Below are positions 1 to 35,013 of a DNA stretch of 35,706 nucleotides, one piece after another (positions within the stretch are counted from its first letter, which is position 1; every line of letters starts with the position of its first letter). A program made the translations under genes and the position numbers. Origin of the DNA: Rhodopirellula sp. (GTDB lineage Bacteria > Planctomycetota > Planctomycetia > Pirellulales > Pirellulaceae); assembly GCA_024644085.1 (NCBI GenBank), contig JAHELS010000040.1:1-35706 (forward strand), written 5' to 3'. The notes under the pieces were generated by a model that ran no database searches, was not told the DNA's origin, and saw only the letters and a list, made by a program, of their open reading frames with translations.

Positions 1-2
1 GA

Positions 3-137
3 CTAGGCACTGTCCCGTAAATGAAGAAAAGCCGATGGTGAGCCGACGGCGCTAGCCGCGGGCCTCATAACTGAACCGTTCTCAACGCGACGCCCGACGC
101 TAGCGCGTTCGGCTCACATTTGCGGGACAGTGCCTAG
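3..137. mobile_element. MITE-like palindromic element, copy A
   Basis: This 135-bp non-coding element has terminal inverted repeats: CTAGGCACTGTCCCGTAAATG at the left and its near-perfect complement, ending in CCTAG, at the right. The interior is also largely self-complementary, because GTGAGCCGACGGCGCTAGC mirrors GCTAGCGCGTTCGGCTCAC, so the whole element can fold into a hairpin. A second copy of the same length lies inverted at 34851-34985 with about three differences. The outer CTAG may be a 4-bp target duplication, as in some IS5-type elements, but this is inference. No transposase is encoded. The element ends 29 bp before the start codon of the next gene. Confidence 0.8.
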
Positions 138-166
138 TCCGTCCGAAAGAAAAAAAGGGAGAGAAC

Positions 167-517
167 ATGGCAAAGAAGATTCAGTGGAGCTACCACCGAA
201 AGGGATGAACGTCTTGCACCCGCGCACAGGAGTTTCTTGTGCCCCGCGACGTCAAGACGGTCGAACAAGTTGATGCCCGCAAGGAGCGAATGGGCGCCAA
301 GGATGCCTTGGCGTTGCTCGATGGGATGTCGAAATTGCTCGTTGCCAAAGGCAAGAAGGTCACCTCGATCGACTTGAAAAAAGACCGGCCCGATGATCAA
401 TCGATCGTCGACATGATGCTCGGACCGACCGGCAACTTGCGCGCTCCCACGATGAAAGTTGGCAAGACGGTGCTGGTCGGATTCAACGACGATCTGTACG
501 AAGAAGTTTTCGGGTGA
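167..517 (+). CDS. ArsC/Spx-like thioredoxin-fold selenoprotein (in-frame UGA = Sec14)
   Basis: The 116-residue protein starts at ATG 167, five bases after a GGGAGAG ribosome binding site. The frame runs through a TGA at 206-208 and then stays open to the stop at 517. A conventional caller would start at the GTG at 239 and lose the active site. Read as selenocysteine, codon 14 gives a K-G-U-T-S-C-T site (U14, C17), which is a U-x-x-C redox motif at the end of the first strand of a thioredoxin fold. The C-terminal part, with LRAPT (cis-Pro) followed by VGKTVLVGFND, matches the ArsC/Spx/glutaredoxin layout. A SECIS-like hairpin follows the UGA. From memory, an ArsC-like (seleno)protein family is annotated in Planctomycetota; the substrate is unknown to me. 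SelA/B/C/D would have to lie elsewhere in the genome. The start lies 29 bp beyond a MITE, so the promoter is probably in or next to that element. Confidence 0.85.
209..252 (+). promoter_or_regulatory. Candidate bacterial SECIS element
   Basis: Directly after the UGA (206-208) the RNA can fold. The outer stem pairs ACGUC (209-213) with GACGU (248-252), and the upper stem pairs GCACA (224-228) with UGUGC (238-242). A short CGC/GCG helix can form between them, sharing one base with the outer stem. The apical loop (229-237) starts with GG and lies about 20 nt after the UGA. That fits the known bacterial SECIS rule of a G among the first loop bases and a loop roughly 16-37 nt from the UGA. I folded this by eye, with no energy calculation. 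Confidence 0.65.
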
Positions 518-34852: not shown

Positions 34853-34985
34853 AGGTACTGTCCCGTAAATGTGAGCCGAACGCGCTAGCGTCGGGCGTCG
34901 CGTTGAGAACGGTTCAGTTATGAGGCCCGCGGCTAGCGCCGTCGGCTCACCATCGGCCTTTCTTCATTTACGGGACAGTGCCTAG
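34851..34985. mobile_element. MITE-like palindromic element, copy B (inverted)
   Basis: This copy has the same 135-bp length as copy A at 3-137, in opposite orientation, with about three substitutions (for example GGTACTG instead of GGCACTG in the left terminal repeat). Both copies are followed by TC after the last CTAG. It touches the orphan tRNA-Val fragment directly. Confidence 0.8.
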
Positions 34986-35013
34986 TCAGGAAGGACTTGC
35001 GGAGTCGCAACTC

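Follow-up and report, generated by a model that had tools for sequence, protein, structure and literature searches.

The window (the whole stretch of DNA analyzed, 35,706 nucleotides of a Rhodopirellula sp. contig) carries near its start an arsC-like gene with a TGA in frame at codon 14 (Table 1). The gene opens with the ATG at 167 and closes with a TGA stop at 515-517, and when the internal TGA is read as U, the translated protein begins MAKKIQWSYHRKG-U-TSC. A first-pass annotation had warned that ordinary gene calling would lose the active site, which is what happens: the plain list of open reading frames (ORFs) opens at GTG 239 with a 92-aa ORF. It had also placed a ribosome binding site before the ATG, and the GGGAGAG found there looks like one.

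Table 1. Features of the arsC-like selenoprotein locus, in window positions.
Feature	Position	Strand	Basis
Ribosome-binding-like GGGAGAG ahead of ATG 167	157..163	+	Sequence
arsC-like selenoprotein gene, 116 aa	167..517	+	Translation with TGA as U; NF041106 match; homologues
In-frame TGA, codon 14 (Sec14)	206..208	+	TGA/Cys exchange among homologues
Codon of Cys17 (presumed resolving residue in UxxC)	215..217	+	Invariant in 27/27 homologues and in 80/80 (best 80 of at least 555 loci)
Bacterial SECIS core: 8-bp stem 224-231/235-242, GUU loop 232-234	224..242	+	Fold, covariation, loss in most Cys forms, synonymous codons

The read-through product matches NF041106, “ArsC family (seleno)protein” (ArsC_rel_Se_1, NCBIfam), over profile positions 1 to 107 of 107 at 141.8 bits (curated cut-off, 85 bits), in agreement with the first-pass description of an ArsC/Spx-like protein with a U-T-S-C site. 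It shares the UxxC site and the encoding of Sec by UGA with that family, from which it shows no substantive difference. Literature on such proteins is found under other names. Tables in PMC1794560 list “ArsC-like” selenoproteins, and Table 2 of the GOS study (PMC2398784) gives “Arsenate reductase 2” (cd03032, UxxC) with 42 sequences. An arsenate reductase-like UxxC family is listed in one selenoproteome review (PMC9312934), and another (PMC13188914) equates its UxxC “arsenate reductase-like protein” with NF041106, citing PMC2398784, and describes most such selenoproteins as functionally uncharacterized. The Sec-containing arsenate reductase, also a selenoprotein of the ArsC superfamily, has UxxS instead and stands as a separate family in the review tables. 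Selenoproteins were reported in two planctomycetes, one of them a Rhodopirellula (PMC4807772); within the article itself, “ArsC” occurs only as an author name in the reference list. A search for an “ArsC family” seleno protein returned no literature, the printed name being “arsenate reductase-like protein.” NF041106 and the two reviews already catalogue the family, so the protein does not represent a new kind, and the gene is a well-supported further member of that family.

Of the 98 other genomes searched, 26 have a homologue, which makes 27 of 99 when the window's own genome is counted; 24 of these 27 genes have TGA at codon 14, and the remaining 3 have TGC. Residues W7, Y9, R11, C17, G62, G86, P87, G89, L91-R92-A93-P94, and G105 are invariant in all 27, as is residue 14 if Sec and Cys are taken together. 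Named genomes, when scanned, yielded at least 555 confirmed loci, of which the best 80 were retained; read by tblastn in all 80, residue 14 is encoded by TGA in 73 and is Cys in 7, and Cys17 is present in every one. Alignment column 14, which the first-pass annotation had singled out, holds only Sec or Cys in both sets (27/27 and, for the best 80 of at least 555, 80/80). The expected conservation of codons 1 to 13 was also found: homologues align from residues 1-5 onward, which together with the invariance of W7, Y9, R11, residue 14, and C17 indicates that these codons are translated.

Among the matches listed, the closest named relatives by protein are in assemblies titled Rubripirellula and Rhodopirellula. 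Records titled as MAGs supply 77 of the best 80 of at least 555 loci, and the taxa beyond planctomycetes within these 80 are Acidobacteria, Bryobacterales, Tectomicrobia, KSB1, Obscuribacterales, Verrucomicrobiales, and Actinomycetota. In a Planctomycetota sample, 81 of 294 genomes had a match (86 match rows). Sixty-seven rows reached at least 63 bits, 57 with one TGA counted anywhere inside and 10 with none; the 19 rows in the 20-36 bit range (3 with a TGA) are probably general ArsC relatives. One genome (G143) has both a TGA copy and a TGA-free copy (at C12:140605-140952 and C5:56886-57224). PLSDB plasmid records gave no match (tblastn, E 1e-5).

The first-pass annotation had also described a SECIS-like hairpin after the UGA, with an apical loop beginning GG. 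Covariation among the homologues bears out the hairpin; the loop does not start with GG, and the Gs at 229-230 are paired in the stem. The GUU loop is closed by an A-U pair (AGUUU if the closing pair is counted open), and the apical loop lies 22-23 nt after the UGA. Criteria for bSECIS elements given in PMC13188914 are a loop of 3-9 nt with G in the first two positions, a stem of 4-16 bp, a distance of 16-37 nt from the UGA, and a minimum free energy of at most -7.5; the corresponding values here are GUU, 8 bp, 22-23 nt, and -16.1 kcal/mol. This energy is that of the 206-256 fold (z = -1.70; 14/200 shuffles as good), and the 209-252 fold is similar (z = -1.48; 18/200). As evidence for the long hairpin, folding of a single sequence is weak; only the core, 222-244, departs clearly from its shuffles (z = -3.06; 2/200 as good).

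Pairing and codons were counted over 81 Sec and 10 Cys distinct 51-nt sequences, and covariation was assessed on all 80 distinct 45-nt Sec rows, including those with a shifted hairpin; the hairpin counts leave out 6 of the 107 loci of the L020-L126 set (L064, L082, L105, L120, L122, and L123), which the motif missed. In the 80 rows, 81.1% of cells are paired. Cells changed on both sides number 37, versus 12.5 in shuffles, and the covariation score is 0.220, versus 0.131 (0/500 shuffles as high for each). Two of the five covariation measures, double-change pairs (166/500) and pair types (236/500), were no better than shuffles. Sliding the stem partners reduces both the paired cells and the score, the nearest value being 0.180 at a slide of -2. 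The window's own hairpin is double-changed in this way, with GCACA...TGTGC versus the majority GCGCA...TGCGC.

At least six of the eight pairs are kept in 66 of 81 distinct Sec genes, versus 1 of 10 distinct Cys genes; 15 Sec genes keep fewer. Folding energy alone does not split the groups, as 77/81 Sec and 8/10 Cys segments reach -7.5 kcal/mol or lower. Codon usage in the stem is also skewed: CTT encodes the Leu in 66 of the 81 Sec genes, versus 71 of the 848 Leu codons found outside the stem in those genes, and the Phe codon is TTT in 49 of 81 genes, versus 62 of 195 Phe codons. Furthermore, GGG occurs with TTC in 13/13 cases and GAG with TTT in 49/62, a coupling that preserves the loop-closing pair. 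These patterns agree with a hairpin preserved through synonymous codon choice. Six Sec genes (L063, L074, L077, L090, L107, and L109) are without the GAGTTTCTT hairpin and seem to use another stem after the UGA.

Of the Sec machinery genes that the first-pass annotation proposed to look for, the search covered selA, selB, and the tRNA-Sec gene (selC), and each was found in the window's genome (6.9 Mb in 468 contigs, 94.57% complete, 5.5% contaminated). selA (497.1 bits) and selB (329.5 bits) adjoin on one contig (C278), and tRNA-Sec (76.1 bits) is on another (C360), with the anticodon loop CTTCAAA and the anticodon TCA when read on the opposite strand. A second tRNA hit in this genome, at 48.3 bits, is barely above the cut-off of 47. 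Of 14 control genomes, one passed the cut-off for selA, two that for selB, and five that for tRNA-Sec, which makes the last model the least specific of the three. Across the 99 genomes, 54 have selB above its cut-off, comprising 25 of the 27 with the arsC-like gene versus 29 of the 72 without it (Fisher P = 2e-6). In both exceptions, G009 (70.3 bits) and G023 (65.8 bits), tRNA-Sec exceeds the cut-off. selA likewise passes its cut-off in G009, where the selB match, at 183.8 bits, falls short. In G023, which is 99% complete, a TGA gene with an intact core hairpin (L039, C40:7115-7462) is accompanied by tRNA-Sec, with neither selA nor selB above its cut-off, perhaps owing to an assembly gap. The three genomes with the Cys form (G050, G074, and G090) all have selB and tRNA-Sec over the cut-offs, so lost decoding does not explain their Cys; selA passes its cut-off in two of them, G050 and G074, and not in G090 (83% complete).

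Neighboring genes were surveyed at 80 loci (flanks of up to 10 kb; a simple caller set to ORFs of at least 90 aa; by-eye judgment of the 25 largest clusters), and within this scope no neighbor is common to the family, the largest clusters covering 11 of 80 loci. There are three such clusters: two consist of antisense ORFs across the arsC-like gene itself, and the third, sulfatase-looking by eye, is scattered at varying distances. A gene that appears LarA-like by eye lies upstream in 5 of the 80 loci, all of Rhodopirellula type, and is lineage-bound rather than family-wide. In four Gemmata-type loci (L082, L105, L122, and L123), a phosphoesterase-like gene, again judged by eye, is directly upstream on the same strand; this synteny is not family-wide. 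Overall, the neighbors at these 80 loci, as judged by eye, give no pointer to the substrate. The contig begins with an inverted repeat that lies immediately upstream of the gene (window 1-139; arms 1-23/117-139 and inner arms 38-66/89-117). Its 17-base end has 29 copies in the genome at no more than one mismatch, versus none in a reversed control, and it recurs within the window at 34971-34987. The repeat resembles a small repeated element, perhaps a MITE-like one.

Codon 14 is very probably decoded as selenocysteine within a U-T-S-C site, judging from the sequence comparisons. The outcomes that the first-pass annotation had named as refuting its reading (no selB or selC, homologues without Cys or Sec at position 14, codons 1 to 13 unconserved) were all checked, and the results went in favor of the reading. 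The opposite case, in which translation ends at the TGA and a 92-aa protein starts at GTG 239 instead, draws on the ORF that does open there, but it is extremely unlikely given that codons 1 to 13 are conserved across an order and beyond and given the Sec/Cys pairing, the SECIS covariation, and the Sec machinery in the genome. The AlphaFold model (A3 alignment of 64 rows, residue 14 modeled as Cys) has a mean pLDDT of 93.8 and a pTM of 0.86, with a strand (4-10) and a helix (15-27) flanking residue 14. Foldseek matched eight solved chains at E <= 0.001, every one of them Spx, and YffB and ArsC-related chains came next; TM-scores for the nearest chains are only about 0.5, with rmsd of 6-8. A profile search of solved structures likewise has Spx at the top (first five E values, 2.7e-9 to 6.5e-9), with U14-T-S-C17 aligned to C-T-S-C of Spx and, at the C terminus, VGFN against VGYN. 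YffB and the ArsC-related proteins (1rw1, 3gkx, and 2kok) share the general ArsC architecture; they match more weakly than Spx and differ by the Sec of the present protein.

A selenium version of Spx/MgsR, binding RNA polymerase and sensing oxidants through a Sec14-Cys17 selenylsulfide, would accord with these best profile matches and with the UxxC in the position of the CxxC switch. We nevertheless regard it as very unlikely. The score against Spx/MgsR (TIGR01617) is 29.7 bits, far under the cut-off of 75.05. Gly52 of Spx is required for polymerase binding, and the aligned position 53 (Spx numbering counted from the alignment) is Gly in just 26 of 64 rows, including the window's protein, and is thus not conserved. 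Spx R60 corresponds to K61 (K in 54/64 rows, R in 10/64) and Spx R91 to the invariant R92, but in the profile alignments Spx R92 is replaced by the invariant Ala93. Both Spx and the putative ArsC 2m46, to which this comparison is confined, carry Arg before the proline at this point, an Arg that we take to be the catalytic R94 of ArsC. Its absence argues against a Spx-like switch and against arsenate reduction alike. A true arsenate reductase, with Sec replacing Cys as the arsenate-attacking nucleophile, is accordingly also very unlikely, although the protein is a member of Pfam ArsC (PF03960; 31 bits, cut-off 24) and its Y-H-x-x-x-nucleophile start resembles the His8/Cys12 spacing of plasmid ArsC. 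Besides Ala93, the second Cys, as in Spx-type sites, the Spx identity of the nearest solved relatives by profile, and the lack of any arsenic gene recognized by eye in the 25 largest neighbor clusters weigh against it.

We therefore favor, at a probability of about 0.75, a joint explanation in which the gene encodes a Sec-decoded, thioredoxin-fold redox protein of the ArsC/Spx superfamily that combines SelB-hairpin decoding with Sec14/Cys17 chemistry. The decoding and fold part is supported by read-through conservation, SECIS covariation, the Sec machinery, and the predicted fold. Weighing against the explanation are the G023 genome, the 15 Sec genes with fewer than six stem pairs, the overlap of Sec and Cys segments in folding energy, the two covariation measures no better than shuffles, the low Foldseek TM-scores, and a gene neighborhood that points to no substrate. 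SelB would deliver Sec-tRNA to the UGA by binding the GUU-capped hairpin. From the UxxC site we infer the redox chemistry, partner, and substrate, with Sec14 as nucleophile, Cys17 as the resolving residue, and a donor of the thioredoxin or glutathione type. Sec14, just ahead of helix 15-27, would attack an oxidized substrate (a disulfide, sulfenic acid, or peroxide), Cys17 would resolve the intermediate to give a Sec14-Cys17 selenylsulfide, and the donor would re-reduce it. The protein is thus most likely a thiol-disulfide-type reductase cycling through this selenylsulfide, and it is probably cytosolic, as no hydrophobic leader is visible in the sequence.

A broader role is speculative and very unlikely: the protein would then be a widespread redox switch with the Spx/ArsC fold, dependent on Sec and mostly standing alone, that responds to oxidants by acting on a regulatory partner and that helps to retain Sec decoding in Planctomycetota. 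The locus represents a case in which ordinary gene calling discards an active site, in an ArsC-like family that is common in Planctomycetota. With its Sec/Cys pairs and a SECIS element inside the Q-E-F-L stretch, this family is a good test bed for the exchange of Sec to Cys.
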